DNA of 48,209 bases from an uncultured Bacteroidota bacterium (GTDB lineage Bacteria; Bacteroidota; Bacteroidia; Bacteroidales; VadinHA17). The stretch spans positions 1 through 48,209 of the forward strand of contig CALMJY010000086.1 in the NCBI GenBank assembly GCA_937864815.1, in the 5' to 3' direction. Shown piece after piece: positions 1-36,783 of the stretch; position 1 is the stretch's first letter, and every line of letters starts with the position of its first letter. Both the position numbers and the translations under genes were made by a program. The notes below the pieces were generated by a model that saw only the letters and a program-made list of their open reading frames with translations, did no database searches and had not been told where the DNA came from.

Positions 1-2718
1 TTAATTGAATTTCAGAATAAGTTTACCACCAATGCTTTTATATCCGAGATCTTCAAAGCCAACATAAACTCCAAGTTCGGCAAGGAAGAAAATCTCGCTT
101 ATACTGTAACCCAGTTCTGTATAATTCGGATTATTCTTAGTCCCGAGCCAGGAGAGGCTCACATTTTCCCTCATCAGTGTATTGCTGATTCCGGGCAGTA
201 GTTTAATAAGAAGGTATGGAGTTGTGTACTTTATGTGCAATTCCCCGAATGCCTCGGGTGTACTTATTGAATAGTATGCAGGCAGCATAAATGCATCCTG
301 GTAATCATCGAGAAGTACGAGAGGAGGCTGAGGATTAAAATGGAAGAAATCATAAAATGGAACATTCCTGTTATCCAGAAATCCTCCCGCCCTGATCCTC
401 CACCTGAGTTCACTGAAAGCACCGATATCATCATATCTTTTGTAAGCTTCAAATCTTATCATGTCATAGTGCCTGACTGCATTGTCAAACTGACTTAATT
501 CATTTATGCCATGCTGCCATGCCAAACTTAAAGTAGGCCATGTTGATCCCCGGGGTACTTTTCTTCCATTGTTTATCCTGTACTTCATGAAAGGAGTATA
601 AGTGAGCTTTATATTTATATCAGCATGTCTCATATCAGTCATGTAATTCACAGGATTTGATGCTGAGTCGAGGTAGGGGTTGTCCGGTATATTATCAGTA
701 TAAACATTGGACGACCTGATAAATGAATAGTCTGTGGTATTTTCAAGGACATGACGGTCATCAATATTTGAACTTATATCAAGGTTCAATCCATTGACAA
801 TCTCTGTTTTGAACCCCATGATGAGGTACTTTGAATCATATAGTTTCAGATAGTTTTTTTCAAAGAACAGTGATGTGATGGAGTTAAGCAAAGGGTTTAT
901 ACCTCCACCTGTTCCTATATCTTTTGAATACATACCCGTCCGAAGGTAGATTTGTCTTTGTTTTAGTCCGTTAAATGAATATGTTCCGTTAACTCTCCAC
1001 ATAAATTCCTTCCGGCTGAAAGCATATCTGAAATCAGGGTAAACAGAGATGGAATTCCAGTCTTTAAAAGCTTTGGAAAACCGGAAACTCAATCCGTAGG
1101 TGAAGCCATCAACTGTGTTGAAGGCAATACTGTTTTTATCAATGAAACCATTGTGAGTAAAATAAAAACCGCTTGTATCTCTCCAGGTATGACCAAAGAT
1201 GATCCACTGAGCCCTGGTTCCAAACATATTATTCTTCTTTCCTCCTTCTGTAGGGATTGTATCATTTTTTATTTCCCTTTTTGTAGACAAGGCCTTGATA
1301 CTATCATTTTTCCTGATGCTTTTCATTTCAAGTTCCGAAAGAGGAACAGGTCGTACAGCAGCCCAGTATATACTGTCCTTTTTACCGGCATCCTTCTCCA
1401 CAACATGGGTAGTTTTGTCGCTGATCTCCAGTTTATTCCTGACACTGTCAGGGAGGCTTTCGTTTGATTCCTTTTCCATTAGTCTTGAAAGCTTTACCAT
1501 ATCCCTGTTGCTCATATCCTCCTTCGCCAGTATCTTCTCTATCTGTTGCTTTGTCTTGGATTTTACTGTATCAGTCTTTTCTGCAGGAAGTGCTGTTCTT
1601 CCGGTATAATCGACGGAGATTGTTTTTGGCTTTGCAAGTGCCAGATTGGGTTTTACATCAAGGTATTTCACTGATCCGCCATATCCGGCATCAGCCTTGA
1701 ATCCCATTATTGAAATATTTATATCAAATTTATGGCTTACCGGCATCCAGATGTCATCCTGAACCGGAATGTATAACTGTTGCACTTTTATTTTGCCTAC
1801 AAGGTTTTCGTTTGTCAGGTCAACACTGTGAAGACACCAGAGATCTTCAATAATAAAGATAGTTCCTTCAAATACCTGCTGGCTTTTTCTTTTTGGGATT
1901 ACTTCGATCTTGTTTATTGTATAATTGCCCTGAAGTGATGCTCCCAGGTATTTAAATTTATAGTGTGAAAAAGCATTAGGGGAGAGCGGTGATATGGCAA
2001 CATCCACTAAGATAGGCTGGTAGAAACTGGCCTGTATGAAATCCATTGGTGAAATATCATCTCCCTGTTCCGGAAATGTGCTGTTAAAGGAAATTACTTT
2101 TTGAAAATACTTGTCAGGGGCATTGAATTCAATTTCATTGAATGATTCCATAACAAAAACATCACCTTCCTTTATTAACTTATCCTCATTTGAGGACTTT
2201 GATCCTGCCGAAATTGAAGTTGATTCATTGTCTGATGCAATCTTCATTGATTTTTGAAGAAGCCTGGGGATGTTTTGTACAACCAGATTCCCTTTAAGGT
2301 AAACCTCCGCTTTATAGTTGCTTATATTATTCAGGTAATATGGTGCCATTCCAATTACCTTTCTCATTATAATATATGCCGGGTCTTCTCCTGATGCTGT
2401 AATACGGACTTCAGGTATCTGGTAATACTGAACCGGTAGTATGATGTTTTTTGTAATAGTTTTGTCAGAAAGGGTAACATTAACGAAGATTGGCTCATAG
2501 CCAAGGCTTTGATAGATCACAGTATATTTTCCTGCAGGGAGCTTTATTTCATAATCTCCCTTCACATTTGCAGTGGTCCCCTGTTTTCTTTCCTGAATAT
2601 AAACTGTGGAATACTGAATGGGCTCTCCTGCCTGATTTGTTATCTTACCCTTCAGTATTTGAGCGGAGAGTTGATTGCAAGAAATTAATAAAACTAATGA
2701 TAATATTAAATGCTTCAT
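1..2718 (-). CDS. DUF5686-like protein with N-terminal carboxypeptidase-D-regulatory-like domain, outer-membrane associated
   Basis: 905 aa ORF; signal peptide MKHLILSLVLLISCNQLSAQ; CarboxypepD_reg-like start (LKGKITNQAGEPIQYSTVYIQERKQGTTANVKGDYEIKLPAGKYTVIYQSLGY); beta-rich C-terminus ending in KFN. Confidence 0.8.
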   Translation of the reverse strand: MKHLILSLVLLISCNQLSAQILKGKITNQAGEPIQYSTVYIQERKQGTTANVKGDYEIKLPAGKYTVIYQSLGYEPIFVNVTLSDKTITKNIILPVQYYQIPEVRITASGEDPAYIIMRKVIGMAPYYLNNISNYKAEVYLKGNLVVQNIPRLLQKSMKIASDNESTSISAGSKSSNEDKLIKEGDVFVMESFNEIEFNAPDKYFQKVISFNSTFPEQGDDISPMDFIQASFYQPILVDVAISPLSPNAFSHYKFKYLGASLQGNYTINKIEVIPKRKSQQVFEGTIFIIEDLWCLHSVDLTNENLVGKIKVQQLYIPVQDDIWMPVSHKFDINISIMGFKADAGYGGSVKYLDVKPNLALAKPKTISVDYTGRTALPAEKTDTVKSKTKQQIEKILAKEDMSNRDMVKLSRLMEKESNESLPDSVRNKLEISDKTTHVVEKDAGKKDSIYWAAVRPVPLSELEMKSIRKNDSIKALSTKREIKNDTIPTEGGKKNNMFGTRAQWIIFGHTWRDTSGFYFTHNGFIDKNSIAFNTVDGFTYGLSFRFSKAFKDWNSISVYPDFRYAFSRKEFMWRVNGTYSFNGLKQRQIYLRTGMYSKDIGTGGGINPLLNSITSLFFEKNYLKLYDSKYLIMGFKTEIVNGLNLDISSNIDDRHVLENTTDYSFIRSSNVYTDNIPDNPYLDSASNPVNYMTDMRHADINIKLTYTPFMKYRINNGRKVPRGSTWPTLSLAWQHGINELSQFDNAVRHYDMIRFEAYKRYDDIGAFSELRWRIRAGGFLDNRNVPFYDFFHFNPQPPLVLLDDYQDAFMLPAYYSISTPEAFGELHIKYTTPYLLIKLLPGISNTLMRENVSLSWLGTKNNPNYTELGYSISEIFFLAELGVYVGFEDLGYKSIGGKLILKFN

Positions 2719-2748
2719 AAACAGCCATTCTCAACTGTAAAAACCGTC

Positions 2749-3423
2749 CTATGACTTCTTTCCTGCCACAACAATCACTATTTCTCCCTTTGGTGTTTTC
2801 TCCCGGTAATATTCTGCAAGAAAAGCCAGACTGCCTCTAATATTTTCCTCATAAATTTTACTCAGCTCCCTCGAAACACATGCTTCGCGGTCACGACCAA
2901 AGTGTTCGGACATTTCATTAAGAGCTTTAACCAGCCGGTATGGTGATTCATAGAATATCATAGTGCGGGTTTCTTCAGCCAGTCCTGAGAGTCGTTTGTT
3001 TCTCCCTTTTTTCTGGGGCAGGAATCCTTCAAAGCAGAATCTGTCACATGGGAGTCCTGAGTTAACAAGGGCAGGAACCATTGCTGTCGGACCGGGCAGT
3101 GTTTCGACCTCAATTCCCTTTTCGATGCATGTTCTTACCAGCAGAAACCCGGGATCAGAGATACCGGGAGTTCCTGCATCGGATATAAGGGCAATTGTCA
3201 GTCCACCGATTATTTTATTACATATTGATTCAACGCTTTTATGCTCATTGAACATATGATGTGACTGCAACAGGGTTCTTATATTATAATGATTCAGAAG
3301 CTTTGAAGCCTGACGGGTATCTTCGGCAAGTATAAGACCGGCACTGCCCAGAACTTCGAGAGCCCTGAAAGTGATATCTTTCAGATTTCCGATCGGAGTA
3401 GGTACCAGAATAAGCTTACTCAT
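2749..3423 (-). CDS. rsmI: 16S rRNA (cytidine(1402)-2'-O)-methyltransferase RsmI
   Basis: 224 aa; MSKLILVPTPIGNLKDITFRALEVL, LAEDTRQASKLLNHY, SDAGTPGISDPG motifs typical of RsmI. Confidence 0.95.
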   Translation of the reverse strand: MSKLILVPTPIGNLKDITFRALEVLGSAGLILAEDTRQASKLLNHYNIRTLLQSHHMFNEHKSVESICNKIIGGLTIALISDAGTPGISDPGFLLVRTCIEKGIEVETLPGPTAMVPALVNSGLPCDRFCFEGFLPQKKGRNKRLSGLAEETRTMIFYESPYRLVKALNEMSEHFGRDREACVSRELSKIYEENIRGSLAFLAEYYREKTPKGEIVIVVAGKKS

Positions 3424-4069
3424 TCGGAATGTGTTTGCGTTTCACGAGGTCCATAAGCTGTTTAACCGCTTCATTCTCCTCACTGCTTCCCGTATAGCTT
3501 ATTATTACAGCCCTGGCATCATCGGTTGAACTGCTTTTTTCGAGTTTGGCAATTGCCTGATCATAAGCTTCTTTATCTCCGTTAAATATCTCTCTTATAA
3601 ATAAAAATCTGTCATTCAAACCTATAGCTGCCTTTAGACTCTGAATGGGTTTTAACTTCATAATTTCTGTTACATCATCCTCACCTTTGAATGTCCCAAG
3701 CTGTTCGTTTATGCTGGAGGACTTCCCTTTAAATTTATCAGCAATAATTGATGATAGCTGTTGATTCTTTTCGGTTTCAAGAGCAGCAATTACTTTCTCT
3801 GTCTTATTTTCACGTTCCTCCGGAGGTAGTTTTGACCTCGAAGGCTTAGCTGCCTGTTTTTTCTCCTCAGCCTTCTCAATCTTTTGTTCAATGGGCTGTT
3901 GCTTAATGCTTTTGAGGAGTCCGATTACATCTGCGGCACTTTTACATTTGGCTTTAGCAAGTTCAACCTGTATTTCCGGAACCCCCGGATAACTCTTGAG
4001 ATCATCAATGATCTGGCATGCGTCATTCAGATCTTTAATAATTAAATCGATTGTTGCATTGAATTCCAT
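3416..4069 (-). CDS. Conserved hypothetical protein, Lys/Glu-rich central segment
   Basis: 217 aa ORF overlapping rsmI start by 8 nt on the same strand; TACTTTTG -7-like motif upstream. Confidence 0.7.
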   Translation of the reverse strand: MEFNATIDLIIKDLNDACQIIDDLKSYPGVPEIQVELAKAKCKSAADVIGLLKSIKQQPIEQKIEKAEEKKQAAKPSRSKLPPEERENKTEKVIAALETEKNQQLSSIIADKFKGKSSSINEQLGTFKGEDDVTEIMKLKPIQSLKAAIGLNDRFLFIREIFNGDKEAYDQAIAKLEKSSSTDDARAVIISYTGSSEENEAVKQLMDLVKRKHIPNE

Positions 4070-4110
4070 ACAAACAGTTGTTAATAAAACAAACCATTTT
4101 CCTTATTTTG

Positions 4111-4118
4111 CAAAAGTA
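4111..4118 (-). promoter_or_regulatory. Putative Bacteroidetes -7 element (TACTTTTG) for the 3416-4069 gene
   Basis: CAAAAGTA on + strand = TACTTTTG on - strand, ~42 bp upstream of ATG. Confidence 0.45.
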
Positions 4119-4171
4119 ATATTATTCCACTTCATGGTGTATTAAAAAATACTTAACATGGTGGAATTAAA

Positions 4172-4768
4172 ATGTTTTTATGCAGGATGGAGTTTCTCGA
4201 GAATTCATTGGCAAAGGGAGGCAAACGGGGATCTGTTGAAGTTATTACAGGTTCCATGTTTTCGGGTAAAACAGAGGAGCTTATCAGGAGGCTCAGGCGG
4301 GCGCAATTTGCCGGTCTGAAGGTAGTGATATTTAAACCTGCACTAGATAAACGATATTCTGAAACACGTGTGGTTTCACATGATGAGAGATCAATTGTCT
4401 CGACTCCGGTCGACCATCCATCAGCAATCCTGCTTCTTGCGGGCGATGCCGATGTGGTTGCTATTGATGAGGCTCAGTTCTTCGACACTTCAGTAATTGA
4501 TGTATGCAACCAGCTTGCAGATAACGGGACAAGGATTATTGTTGCTGGCCTGGATATGGATTTTATGGGAAAACCATTTGGCCCGATGCCGGGTCTGATG
4601 GCAATTGCTGAGCATGTTTACAAGGCCCACGCTATCTGCATGCGTTGCGGAAGCCTGGCTCAGTATTCCTTCCGTAAGACCGATGAATCGCAGGTTGTTC
4701 TGCTTGGTGAAAAGAATCTCTATGAGCCACTGTGCAGAAGTTGTTATAACGCTGCCCTAAACAAATAA
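4172..4768 (+). CDS. tdk: Thymidine kinase (start may be the internal ATG at 4187)
   Basis: [20 protein letters not shown]-loop, DEAQFFD, CxxC zinc motifs (CMRCG, CRSC). Confidence 0.95.
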
Positions 4769-4771
4769 GCG

Positions 4772-7234
4772 GTGAAACTAAAATCATCAGATATTGCCCG
4801 TATTACAGGAGGTACTCTTATTGGCTCTCCTGATGTGGTCGTAAGTGAGTTGGTTACTGACAGCAGACAACTTAGTTTTACGGAAGAAATAGCATTTGTG
4901 GCTATCAGGGGAAAAAACCATGACGGTCATCAGTATATTGCAAACCTTTATCAGAAAGGGATAAGAACTTTTATTGTTGAAAAGCTTCCGGAGAATACTT
5001 CCGGCTATTCATCAGCTGCATTTATACAGACAGATAGTTCAGTTGAAGCACTTCAGAAAATAGCATCATATAGGCGCAAAGCATTTAATTCACCTGTTAT
5101 CGCTATAACAGGAAGTGCAGGTAAAACTATTGTCAAAGAGTGGCTTGCAGACATTATGAGCCTTACTCTTCCTGTAATCAGAAGCCCCAGAAGCTATAAT
5201 TCACAAATCGGAGTACCTCTTTCTGTCTGGAAACTTGATGAGAAATACCGTTTGGGAATATTTGAAGCAGGGATATCCCAGATGGGAGAGATGGAAAAAC
5301 TCCGGAAAATTATTGACCCGACAATAGGTGTAATTACTAATATAGGTGATGCCCACAGGGAAAATTTCCCTGATTATCACACCAAAGCTTCTGAAAAACT
5401 TAAACTTTTCAGAAACTCTTCAGCAATTATTTTCTGCAGTGATCATAAGATAATCCGTGAACTAATAGATTCTGATGAAAACCTGGGAAAGAAGGAACTC
5501 GTGTCATGGTCCGTACAAAACAAAAGTGCATCGGTTTATGCAGTGATATTCATCCTTCCTTCAGGAAACACGGGTCTTAATCTTACCTTCAGAGGTGTAT
5601 CATTTTTATTTGAGGTTCCATTTCAGGACAGAGCATCAATTGAAAATGCAATAACGGTTGCCTCAGTCTGTCTTTACATGGGAGTCAGTCAGGATATCAT
5701 TGACAGGGGTTTACGCGGACTTGTTTCAGTCCCTATGAGGATGGAGATGAAAGGAGGCATTAACAACTGCCAGCTTATAGAGGATTATTATAACTCTGAT
5801 CCGGGATCACTTGGTATGGCAATTGACTATCTCCTGGCACAAAACGGGAAGAAGACAACCCTGATTCTTTCTGATTTCGTTCAGGCGGGAAGGAGTGATG
5901 AAGATCTTTACGGGGAGGTAGCCGGGCTTATCAGAAAGACAGAAATTTCACGATTTATAGGTATCGGCAGAGCACTCACTTCATGCAGACATCTTTTCAG
6001 GCCTGATGACAGGTTTTTTTACACAACAGATGAATATATCAGGAGTGTAATTACAACTGATTACAGAAACGAGATAATACTCCTGAAGGGAGCAAGGATC
6101 TTTGAGTTTGAAAAGATTGCGAAGGTACTTGAGCAGCAGGTTCATCAGACTGTGCTTGAGATAAACCTGGATGCAATCTCCCACAATCTGAATAAATTCC
6201 GCAGTTACCTGGATCCGTCTGTTAAAATTATGGCCATGGTTAAGGCTTTCGCCTATGGTTCAGGTTCATCTGAGATAGCTTCCTTTCTTGAGTATCACCG
6301 CGTTGGTTACCTAGCAGTTGCATATGCAGATGAAGGAGTAGGACTTAGAAATTCCGGTGTCACCCTGCCGGTAATGGTTATGAATCCCGATCCCTCGGCA
6401 GCCGACCTTATGATTAAATATAATCTTGAACCTGAGCTGTACAGTTTTGCTTCATTCAGGTCATTTGTTACTGTGGCAGAACGACATGGTCTGATTGGTT
6501 ACCCTGTTCATATAAAGATAGACACAGGTATGCACCGCTTGGGTTTCCTCCCTGAAGAGGTTGATGAACTGGTTAAGGAAATCCATGACATGGAATGTAT
6601 CCGAATCATTTCAGTTTTTTCGCATCTTTCTGCAAGTGAGGATCCGCAGCTTGATGATTTCACAAGGAAGCAGGTTCAGATTTTTCTTGAGGCTGCGGGG
6701 AAGATTCGCGAGGCTGTAACCTATCCTTTCCTGAGGCATATTCTAAACTCTTCAGGGATCATAAGAATGCCTGAATATCAGTTTGAGATGGTTCGGCCCG
6801 GAATCGGAATTTATGGTGCCGGTAGTTTTGAAGGAGTGGAATTAAAACAGGCCGGGCGCTTCAAGACACGAATATCACAGGTTAAGAAAGTGAAGAAAGG
6901 AGAACCGGTAGGTTACGGATGTTCCGACGTGTCCGATTCCGACAGGATAATTGCAATTCTTCCGGTAGGCTATGCTGACGGGCTTAAAAGAAAGATGGGA
7001 AACAGCAGAGGCAGTCTTTTTATAAAGGGGAAAAGGGTTCCCATTATAGGGAATGTGTGTATGGATATGTGCATGGCCGATATTACCGGAACTGATGCTG
7101 TTGAAGGTGATGAAGCGGAAATTTTCGGAGAAAATATTCCTGTTAATGAAATCGCGGAGATTTGTGAAACTATTCCTTATGAAATACTTACCTCAATTCC
7201 GGAAAGGGTAAAAAGAGTATTTTACAGGGAGTAG
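4772..7234 (+). CDS. murF-alr: Bifunctional UDP-MurNAc-tripeptide:D-Ala-D-Ala ligase / alanine racemase (MurF-Alr fusion), GTG start
   Basis: 820 aa; N-terminal Mur ligase ITGSAGKT P-loop; C-terminal VLEINLDAISHNLNKFRSYLDPSVKIMAMVKAFAYGSG PLP-Lys motif and KIDTGMHRLGF of alanine racemase. Confidence 0.93.
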   Translation: MKLKSSDIARITGGTLIGSPDVVVSELVTDSRQLSFTEEIAFVAIRGKNHDGHQYIANLYQKGIRTFIVEKLPENTSGYSSAAFIQTDSSVEALQKIASYRRKAFNSPVIAITGSAGKTIVKEWLADIMSLTLPVIRSPRSYNSQIGVPLSVWKLDEKYRLGIFEAGISQMGEMEKLRKIIDPTIGVITNIGDAHRENFPDYHTKASEKLKLFRNSSAIIFCSDHKIIRELIDSDENLGKKELVSWSVQNKSASVYAVIFILPSGNTGLNLTFRGVSFLFEVPFQDRASIENAITVASVCLYMGVSQDIIDRGLRGLVSVPMRMEMKGGINNCQLIEDYYNSDPGSLGMAIDYLLAQNGKKTTLILSDFVQAGRSDEDLYGEVAGLIRKTEISRFIGIGRALTSCRHLFRPDDRFFYTTDEYIRSVITTDYRNEIILLKGARIFEFEKIAKVLEQQVHQTVLEINLDAISHNLNKFRSYLDPSVKIMAMVKAFAYGSGSSEIASFLEYHRVGYLAVAYADEGVGLRNSGVTLPVMVMNPDPSAADLMIKYNLEPELYSFASFRSFVTVAERHGLIGYPVHIKIDTGMHRLGFLPEEVDELVKEIHDMECIRIISVFSHLSASEDPQLDDFTRKQVQIFLEAAGKIREAVTYPFLRHILNSSGIIRMPEYQFEMVRPGIGIYGAGSFEGVELKQAGRFKTRISQVKKVKKGEPVGYGCSDVSDSDRIIAILPVGYADGLKRKMGNSRGSLFIKGKRVPIIGNVCMDMCMADITGTDAVEGDEAEIFGENIPVNEIAEICETIPYEILTSIPERVKRVFYRE

Positions 7235-33715: not shown

Positions 33716-33819
33716 CCCCTGCACGCAACCTTTTTTTTGTTAAAACCATCAATCTTTTGGAAGAAACTGGTATTTAAGACAATTATTTTATAATTTTATC
33801 TGTTCAAAGACTTTGATCC

Positions 33820-34380
33820 TTGGCAGATATAAAAGATTTAATAAAAGGTTGTCTTGAAGGTAACAGGAGAGATCAGGAACTCCTGTACAGAAGGTATGCG
33901 GGTAAATTGTATGCCGTATGTCTCCAGTATTCCGGAAATGATGATGAAGCAAAGGATATTTTACAGGAAGGATTCATCAAGATATTTGAAAACCTGCATA
34001 ATTATAAGTTTGAAGGTTCTTTTGAAGGCTGGATGAGGAGAATAACCGTCAATACCGCTCTGGAGAAATACCGGAGCCGGAATAACCTTTATAAGGTTGA
34101 AGATATTGACCAGATAGCAGAAACTGATTCTGAGCCCGATACAGAAGATTATTCGGGTCTTGAGGCAAATGATCTGCTGGCTATTATCAGGGAGCTGCCT
34201 CCCAAATACAGAATGATATTCAACCTCTATGCCATTGAGGGTTATTCACATAAGGAAATAAGCAAAATGGTGAATATCTCAGAAGGAACTTCAAAATCGA
34301 ATCTTTCGAGAGCACGGATTATTTTGCAGAGGAGAGTTGGATCATATACAGGAATTAAGAAGAAGATTGCGAATGGCTGA
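33820..34380 (+). CDS. ECF RNA polymerase sigma-70 factor (TTG start as tracked)
   Basis: YAGKLYAVCLQYSGNDDEAKDILQEGFIKIFENLHNYKFEGSFEGWMRRITVNTALEKYRS and LPPKYRMIFNLYAIEGYSHKEISKMVNISEGTSKSNLSRAR. Confidence 0.93.
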   Translation: MADIKDLIKGCLEGNRRDQELLYRRYAGKLYAVCLQYSGNDDEAKDILQEGFIKIFENLHNYKFEGSFEGWMRRITVNTALEKYRSRNNLYKVEDIDQIAETDSEPDTEDYSGLEANDLLAIIRELPPKYRMIFNLYAIEGYSHKEISKMVNISEGTSKSNLSRARIILQRRVGSYTGIKKKIANG

Positions 34381-35695
34381 CAGCAGGGCAAATATTGATC
34401 TGGTCTTCAGAAACGGATTAAAGGATTACGAAGTTCTTCCGCCTGCGGAGCTATGGGATAATATACATGCATCTGTAAATGTACCCCGGAAAAAGCCTGT
34501 TTTTCCCTTCCTTAAAGCTGCGGCAGCCATTACTGTAGTTGCAACTATGAGCTTCCTTGCTTACCGGTTAGGTGTGGAAGTATCAACCAGTCAGATGAAT
34601 GAAATGTCGGTTGCAAATCAGGAATCATTTTCTCCTGAACTGAATCCTGTTCTTCCTTCTGTTGCAGCCAGTGTTGTTCAAAGGGAAGTTAATGACAGCC
34701 CGCTGAATAACAATATTGCTGCGGCAGTGATTCCTGCCGGTAGACCTGTGAATCTTACAGGCAGTGTTTCCGAATATACTAATCCTGCTCTTTCAAAAAA
34801 TCTTATGGCTGAAAGCCGCATGATGCCAGGCATACAGGAACCAGCTGACATAAAATATGCTAAGGTAAAACCTGTTGAATTTCAGTCGTTTACATATCAG
34901 GGATTACAGGATAATGCAGCAGTGCCGGAAGTACAGAGATGGTCGGTGTCTGCAATTGCCTCTCCTACATATTATTCACAGTTTTCCACTGGTAGTAATC
35001 AGATTGCACAACAGATTATGGAATCAGACCAGACACGATCATCATATACAGGAGGTGTAGGCCTTGCATACAAGATCTCCAGTCGCTTCAGCATTCAGTC
35101 AGGTCTTTATTATTCATCACTCGGTCAGGAGGTAGGAGGTGTTAATGCCTACAGTGGTTTCCAGCAATATGACAATTCAAAGAGCGATCATAACTTTGAA
35201 CTACTCACTGCTATGGGAACAGTTTACTCCAGAAACTCGGATGTCTTTCTTAATTCATCTGATCTGCCGGCCAGAGTCCAGACTTATTATACCACTGATG
35301 TTTTCGATCCGGTCAAAGCCAACCTTAGCTACGTTAGCAGTACCATATATCAAGACCTGAGTTTTCTCGAGCTACCAATCATCTTAAGGTATAAAGTTGT
35401 AGACAGTAAGATAGATCTTAATGTTATTGGTGGTATGTCCTACAACTTCCTTCTTAACAATTCTGTTTACGCTGTTCTTGATGGTGGTAAATATCCGGTG
35501 GGAACCACAGAAGGTCTGAATACAGTTTCCCTCAGTAGCTCCCTGGGTATGGGTATGGAGTACAATCTTACAAATAACCTTTCACTCAATCTTGAACCTA
35601 CATTCAGATATTACCTGAATCCGTTCAACTCCGGAAAAACAGGTTACCATCCCTATTCAATTGGTGTCTTTTCAGGCATCTCTTACAGGTTTTAA
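34373..35695 (+). CDS. Anti-sigma-like N-terminus + single TM + C-terminal outer-membrane beta-barrel protein
   Basis: ATG at 34373 overlaps sigma gene by 8 nt; VLPPAELWDNIHASVNVPRKKPVFPFLKAAAAITVVATMSFLAYRLG then linker and barrel ending SIGVFSGISYRF. Confidence 0.75.
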   Translation: MADSRANIDLVFRNGLKDYEVLPPAELWDNIHASVNVPRKKPVFPFLKAAAAITVVATMSFLAYRLGVEVSTSQMNEMSVANQESFSPELNPVLPSVAASVVQREVNDSPLNNNIAAAVIPAGRPVNLTGSVSEYTNPALSKNLMAESRMMPGIQEPADIKYAKVKPVEFQSFTYQGLQDNAAVPEVQRWSVSAIASPTYYSQFSTGSNQIAQQIMESDQTRSSYTGGVGLAYKISSRFSIQSGLYYSSLGQEVGGVNAYSGFQQYDNSKSDHNFELLTAMGTVYSRNSDVFLNSSDLPARVQTYYTTDVFDPVKANLSYVSSTIYQDLSFLELPIILRYKVVDSKIDLNVIGGMSYNFLLNNSVYAVLDGGKYPVGTTEGLNTVSLSSSLGMGMEYNLTNNLSLNLEPTFRYYLNPFNSGKTGYHPYSIGVFSGISYRF

Positions 35696-35829: not shown

Positions 35830-36783
35830 ATGAGTTTTAATAAACGATCCATAATCGTAATTTCTGCCATGACCTCAGTTATAGCGATGATGATGATAAT
35901 AGGATTCGGTTTCAGGGGGTCAGAGAAAGAATCCGTATTATCATCATCCGATACCGTTTACAGTATTCAATCGTTCAAATTACCCGATGAAGTGATATTT
36001 GGAGGAGAGCGTATGCCTCTTGAGAATTTTGATACAAGGGAGAGCCTGGAAAGAGAGATTCTCATAAGTGCCTACCGTCATTCTTCAACAATACTCATTA
36101 TAAAAAGAGCGAACAGATATTTTCCAGTGATGGAGAAGATACTGAAAGAGAACAATATACCGGATGACTTCAAGTACCTGGCTGCTGCTGAGAGTGAGTA
36201 CAGTAATATGGTTTCACCTGTGGGAGCAACAGGTTTCTGGCAGATCATGCCTGAAACAGGAAGGGAACAGGGAATGGAGATCAATACTGTAGTTGATGAG
36301 AGATACCACATTGAAAAATCGACAGAATTTGCATGTGATTTTTTCAGAAAATCGTATGAAAAGTACGGGAACTGGACTCTTGCTGCAGCTTCATACAATG
36401 GTGGCAGGAGAAGGATGGATGAACAGATAGAGTTGCAGAAGCAGAATAACTATTATGATCTGCTTCTCGCTGAAGAGACTTCACGATATATTTTCAGGGC
36501 TGTAGCATATAAACTTATTATAAGTGATCCGGCTGCCTATGGATTTGACCTTGAAAAGGAAGATCTCTATCCTGAACTGAAATACTATGAAGTAAAGGTT
36601 GATACAACAGTTTCAGATTTTTCTGATTTCGCCGGCAAATTCGGCACAAACTATAAAATGCTGAAATTTCTGAATCCATGGCTCAGAAAACCTTATCTGA
36701 CACCCAAAACAAATAAGGTATACCTTATAAAAATACCTGCAGAAGGGATGCGTACCATAGAAAAGGGAGAGGCAGAAAACTGA
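35830..36783 (+). CDS. MltD-like lytic murein transglycosylase with C-terminal LysM-like region
   Basis: SLT motif AAAESEYSNMVSPVGATGFWQIMPETGREQGM ... ASYNGG; C-terminal YYEVKVDTTVSDFSDFAGKFGTNYKMLKFLNPWL. Confidence 0.88.
   Translation: MSFNKRSIIVISAMTSVIAMMMIIGFGFRGSEKESVLSSSDTVYSIQSFKLPDEVIFGGERMPLENFDTRESLEREILISAYRHSSTILIIKRANRYFPVMEKILKENNIPDDFKYLAAAESEYSNMVSPVGATGFWQIMPETGREQGMEINTVVDERYHIEKSTEFACDFFRKSYEKYGNWTLAAASYNGGRRRMDEQIELQKQNNYYDLLLAEETSRYIFRAVAYKLIISDPAAYGFDLEKEDLYPELKYYEVKVDTTVSDFSDFAGKFGTNYKMLKFLNPWLRKPYLTPKTNKVYLIKIPAEGMRTIEKGEAEN

Follow-up and report, generated by a model that had tools for sequence, protein, structure and literature searches.

Results

Gene organization of the locus

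The window is the whole stretch of DNA analysed here, 48,209 nt of a contig from an uncultured member of the Bacteroidales. It carries an ECF sigma factor gene followed directly by a gene for a putative anti-sigma protein (Table 1), and the gene order is lpd, sigma, anti-sigma (dma), SLT lytic transglycosylase and uvrA. This full order is retained in one locus of the same genus (L160) and in one of another family (L161); the lpd side is also retained in L159. For comparison, 21 relative loci were taken from named environmental Bacteroidota and Bacteroidales assemblies. Twenty of them are full length, and in the remaining one (L048) the anti-sigma start is interrupted by Ns. The alignment of 21 sequences used below consists of the 20 full-length orthologs and the window.

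Table 1. Features of the sigma/anti-sigma locus in the window, with a sister pair from the same genome in the last row.
Feature	Coordinates	Strand	Evidence
Predicted autoregulatory ECF promoter, GCAACCTTT-N13-CATC (-35 GCAACC, 16-nt spacer, -10 CATC)	33725..33750	+	22/22 orthologous loci
ECF sigma factor gene, 186 aa, TTG start	33820..34380	+	Sigma70_r2 and Sigma70_r4_2 over Pfam cut-offs
8-nt overlap ATGGCTGA, sigma stop/anti-sigma start	34373..34380	+	
Anti-sigma protein, 440 aa, ATG start	34373..35695	+	Full-length orthologs 43-56% identical, same architecture
Sigma-binding-like motif ANIDLVFRNGLKDYEVLPPAELWDNI, residues 6-31	34388..34465	+	79% mean pairwise identity, 21 orthologs
Predicted inner-membrane helix, about residues 45-66	34505..34570	+	Hydropathy peak in every homolog
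Disordered periplasmic linker, about 118 aa, residues 68-185	34574..34927	+	pLDDT about 30, 18% identity, indels
Predicted 8-stranded outer-membrane beta-barrel, residues 186-440	34928..35692	+	Pfam, AlphaFold2, PDB fold matches
Lytic transglycosylase (SLT) gene, neighbour	35830..36783	+	SLT 68 bits; synteny in L159-L161
Sister pair (L224): sigma 1705-2265, anti-sigma about 2313-3611, PorP/SprF 3809-4792	G000:C329:47500-56000		

The sigma protein scores 55 bits with Sigma70_r2 and 63.5 bits with Sigma70_r4_2. Its score with TIGR02985 is 96 bits, which is under the cut-off of that model. Nearly all orthologs share the TTG start codon at this position (their upstream sequences end in TTG), and it perhaps keeps sigma synthesis low. 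The first-pass annotation had reported an 8-nt overlap between the sigma gene and the downstream gene. The overlap is exactly 8 nt in the window and is kept in 19 of 20 orthologs, the other one (L045) having 11 nt. An automatic ORF list starts the anti-sigma gene at a TTG (34337); this start was set aside since the conserved start is the ATG at 34373. In one locus (L021, G174:C1:92633) a single ORF joins the first 64 sigma residues to the barrel end, which is probably a decayed fusion or an assembly error of a sigma/anti-sigma pair.

Domain structure of the putative anti-sigma protein

The N-terminal motif has the consensus NIDxLFxxxLKDFExxPPxxVWxxI in the wider class, where it is recognizable throughout. 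Because this module is found beside ECF sigma genes also when it is fused to other C-termini, it is the part of the protein most tied to sigma factors. AlphaFold2 gave low confidence for the N-terminal 45 residues. With the full-length alignment it predicted a helix at residues 45-80, disorder at 81-186 and then eight long strands; residues 71-186 have a pLDDT below 50. A model of the barrel alone reached a pLDDT of 80 and a pTM of 0.74, again with 8 long strands, which are separated by long segments. The disordered linker blurred a fold search of the PDB with the full-length model, and the search was rerun on the barrel alone; among its best matches are 8-stranded barrels such as those of the OmpA, OmpW and NspA type, with modest TM-scores (about 0.4-0.57). 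The Pfam match of the C-terminal part to OMP_b-brl_2 (27.6 bits) is barely above the cut-off of 27, and the chain ends in GISYRF, an OMP C-terminal signal. A PDB sequence search gave no match, and a Pfam scan of the anti-sigma protein found no FecR, STN, RseA or zf-HC2/zinc-finger anti-sigma domain.

These parts agree with the first-pass annotation, which had described a soluble N-terminus, a hydrophobic helix, a linker of ~100 aa and a C-terminus ending in Phe, and had proposed a C-terminal barrel to be checked by structure prediction. It had also raised the alternative that the helix is a cleaved signal peptide, and the orthologous sequences speak to this point. The helix is preceded by a conserved region of 40 residues and 2-5 basic residues and is followed by a conserved Y-R/K, and the orthologs have no A-x-A site in common. 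By these features it does not look like a typical cleavable signal peptide.

The same features bear on a rival reading, that of an ordinary outer-membrane barrel whose signal peptide is unusually long, next to a sigma factor under some other control. A hydrophobic N-terminal helix does precede the barrel, and this genome has many ordinary barrels that belong to its Pfam family. However, the 26-residue N-terminal motif is 79% identical among the orthologs, whereas the n-regions of signal peptides normally drift. The missing A-x-A site and the positive residues after the helix also argue against an ordinary barrel, as does the presence of the same N-terminal module beside sigma genes in proteins that have no barrel. 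We regard this reading as highly improbable.

Conservation and distribution

The 20 full-length orthologs (43-56% identity) have in common the motif, helix, linker, barrel, upstream sigma gene and overlap. Mean pairwise identity (n = 21) falls from 79% in the motif to 50% in the helix and 18% in the linker, and rises again to 65% over the barrel and 86% over its last strand. None of the 118 linker columns is conserved (n = 21), and the linker length is nearly constant. Such a pattern, with constraint at both ends and none on a connecting tether of almost uniform length, is what one would expect if both ends work. The first-pass annotation had made its model conditional on both ends being real parts of one polypeptide, and the alignment supports the view that they belong to one conserved chain. 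It had further suggested a survey for the same architecture beside ECF genes: besides the orthologs, a relative of the anti-sigma protein was found in 157 of 393 sampled genomes of the order (about 40%). With the whole architecture present in 20 orthologs and a relative in so many genomes, the observation is not a chance one. In the wider class both motif and barrel are recognizable, and the linkers range from a similar length to several hundred residues. An ECF sigma gene lies directly upstream in all complete homologous loci. A search of viral contigs found no relatives.

Predicted promoter and regulon

The motif GCAACC-N16-CATC is present upstream of the sigma gene in all 22 orthologous loci, where 0.01 would be expected after shuffling. 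Many other families of the order have relatives, and GCAAC(C/T)-N15/16-CATC precedes the sigma gene in 25 of 28 of these. A sister sigma clade has the same -35 element with GTC in place of CATC (19 of 24 loci); this difference in the -10 element speaks for recognition of the promoter element by the cognate sigma factor. Relatives of family f6 (L062-L071) have no such promoter next to the sigma gene. Their upstream sequence resembles another coding region, so we do not claim a promoter loss. Between the ECF promoter and the start codon, at 33751-33819 of the window, lies a second conserved stretch that is AT-rich (TACTGGCATTTAAGA...TTATATTTTTAT in orthologs) and is perhaps a housekeeping Bacteroidota promoter.

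The strict motif has a single occurrence in the 4.66-Mb genome, at the window operon. Most one-mismatch and relaxed matches in this genome fall within genes, and they were discounted as chance. One exception, with a 15-nt spacer, is intergenic (G000:C239:219), about 200 nt upstream of a gene for a secreted carboxypeptidase-regulatory-like protein. NigD was dropped as a regulon marker because its gene is absent from this genome. Among 149 genomes of the order the strict motif occurs 62 times, compared with 9 times for the reversed control, and at least 11 of the 62 sites lie no more than about 300 nt from where a sigma/barrel-anti-sigma pair starts, several of them on the divergent strand. In L139 a serpin lipoprotein gene (1037-2269; Pfam Serpin, E 2e-118) is divergent from the sigma/anti-sigma pair, with the strict motif at 2353. 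Serpin-like genes were also seen near the motif in L093, L150 and L163. Other sites likewise precede genes of exported proteins: a DUF4382 lipoprotein (L146), a weakly PagL-like barrel (L142) and, in L148, an FKBP-type isomerase lipoprotein. As a set, the motif-preceded genes of relatives point to the envelope; individual sites may have arisen by chance.

Related pairs in the same genome

The same genome encodes three more sigma/anti-sigma pairs in which the N-terminal module is related. On G000:C212 lies a second, divergent barrel pair (L167: sigma 933-1514, anti-sigma 1504-2745), preceded by another outer-membrane-barrel-like gene. At about 7.1 kb of G000:C329 (L002, L165) a sigma gene is paired with a 180-aa anti-sigma protein that has the same module and helix and a short helical C-terminus, without a barrel; a gene for a 370-aa repetitive, beta-rich exported protein follows this pair.

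In the third pair (L168, at 49.8 kb of C329) the anti-sigma protein is composed of the N-terminal module, one helix, a linker, two PKD domains and a CHU_C type IX (type B) sorting domain. A PorP/SprF gene (Pfam PorP_SprF) lies directly after the sorting-domain anti-sigma gene in this genome and in G588, and SprA is also encoded in this genome. The PKD/CHU_C anti-sigma family (including L194-L220) is found in at least 25 genomes of the order, and PKD_4 and CHU_C were matched in all 25 relatives scanned. The CHU_C score of the protein from this genome is 27.0 against a Pfam cut-off of 27, and it is below the NCBIfam cut-off. The sorting-domain pairs have their own promoter variant, GCAACC-N17-GTC. 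In the sigma tree the sorting-domain type clusters with a few barrel types, apart from the window type. Proteins with type B sorting domains are reportedly anchored by PorP-like proteins (PMC9143113). In the literature searched, with partial coverage, we found no report of an anti-sigma protein joined to a type IX sorting domain. From its domain content and gene neighbourhood, the PKD/CHU_C pair is possibly an undescribed trans-envelope anti-sigma system anchored via the type IX system.

Discussion

Comparison with known systems

The first-pass annotation had implied that the single-chain design was unprecedented; this part of it did not hold, since Dma/Das and EcfO-Reo had already been described (PMC9308784, PMC13114119, PMC13088901). 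The architecture is not new and matches that of Dma/Das and Reo/EcfO of Bacteroides (PNAS 2024; Nat Commun 2022; J Bacteriol 2026). In B. thetaiotaomicron, the genes for Dma1 and Dma2 lie beside those of ECF21 sigma factors, and in both proteins an anti-sigma region at the N-terminus is joined through a transmembrane helix and a long disordered tether to a barrel at the C-terminus; the hypervesiculation phenotype of dma2 depends on its sigma factor gene das2 (PMC13088901). EcfO-Reo of Phocaeicola is said to extend through all compartments, and it is the pair with the strongest induction by two antibacterial toxins directed at the outer membrane, BcpT and Bd-A (bacteroidetocin A), of which Bd-A inhibits BamA (PMC9308784, PMC13114119). 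Every anatomical feature that could be tested was found in the window pair, and we therefore count it with the Dma/Das and EcfO-Reo kind, a comparison made by descriptions.

By description, the window pair shares with Dma/Das the order of parts, the adjacent sigma gene and the restriction to Bacteroidota (PMC13088901). It differs in coming from another lineage, in a genome without a gene for NigD (the known Dma1 target), and in its position between lpd and SLT/uvrA. With EcfO-Reo of Bacteroides fragilis and Phocaeicola vulgatus it shares a sigma gene followed by a gene for a C-terminal-barrel anti-sigma protein predicted to reach from cytoplasm to surface (PMC9308784, PMC13114119). The EcfO-Reo regulon includes NigD and O-antigen effects, whereas neither was found for the window pair. 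In RseA-RpoE of E. coli the anti-sigma protein is likewise membrane-bound and the OMP C-terminal signal is the stress cue; however, RseA itself lacks a barrel, the cue resides in other proteins and is sensed by DegS, and the window anti-sigma protein has no RseA Pfam match. In FecR-FecI cell-surface signalling an outer-membrane barrel also informs an inner-membrane anti-sigma protein, but the two are separate proteins and a TonB-dependent transporter is involved; the window protein has no FecR or STN match.

Proposed mechanism

Genome comparison establishes the architecture, its conservation, the coupling of the two genes and the predicted promoter. On this basis and from the published relatives we think it very probable that the pair consists of a sigma factor and a single-chain trans-envelope anti-sigma tether, autoregulated and released on outer-membrane disturbance or barrel binding. 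The N-terminal 40 residues would hold the sigma factor at the inner membrane, and the uncleaved helix, the disordered tether of ~118 residues and the 8-stranded barrel would form one chain that reaches from there to the cell surface. A disturbance of the outer membrane or of barrel assembly, or the binding of something by the barrel, would lead to alteration or proteolysis of the tether or the N-terminus, and this change would release the sigma factor. The freed sigma factor would then transcribe its own operon from GCAACC-N16-CATC (autoinduction) and, in relatives, also genes for envelope proteins. Sequestration by the N-terminus and induction by outer-membrane stress are proposed by analogy to the published relatives. 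As to the releasing step, we speculate that the trigger is the insertion state or strain of the barrel, either relayed along the tether or made accessible to a protease. A direct readout of barrel assembly, as the first-pass annotation had suggested, would fit the published induction by a BamA inhibitor.

The chain may not stay whole. Anti-sigma proteins of the FpvR/FoxR type are cleaved between domains, and in a two-piece variant of the model one protein would be made and its linker cut in maturation, leaving the barrel and the inner-membrane anti-sigma part to work as two separate partners, like self-cleaving regulators of the FecR type. Since the linker is disordered and evolves fast, proteases would have access to it. 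Against such cutting, the linker has no conserved cleavage motif (0 of 118 columns), and permanent separation of the parts would be hard to square with the kept tether length and with a fusion that holds strictly in all relatives. We consider the two-piece variant unlikely.

A further question is what the barrel reports. The same single-chain protein could use its barrel as a receptor for a ligand, e.g., a glycan, in place of monitoring barrel assembly or membrane integrity. This hypothesis has been proposed for Dma2, and the long segments between the strands of the barrel model would suit it. However, the strongest reported inducers of EcfO-Reo are outer-membrane-damaging toxins and a BamA inhibitor, and the predicted regulon genes of relatives encode exported proteins, among them a serpin and an FKBP isomerase. 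A ligand receptor seems the less favored role.

Under the single-chain reading, the module and helix might serve as a general trans-envelope tether with a swappable outer end: a barrel inserted by BAM would report on the outer membrane, and the PKD domains with a type B sorting domain, retained or exported by the type IX system, would report on that system. We see this generalization as evenly balanced.

Significance

The window pair appears to be a new case, in environmental Bacteroidales, of a single-chain anti-sigma design known from a few gut Bacteroides. With relatives in about 40% of the sampled genomes, anti-sigma proteins predicted to reach from cytoplasm to surface in one chain are common in environmental Bacteroidales. 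The predicted autoregulatory promoter is added here; GCAACC-N16-CATC provides a signature for regulon prediction, and the fixed genetic layout can be used for testing. The sister family with PKD and type IX sorting domains is the newest lead from this analysis. If the state of the barrel is the release step, the protein would be the most direct sensor of outer-membrane assembly known; if the type IX form is true, the principle would extend to a second export machine.
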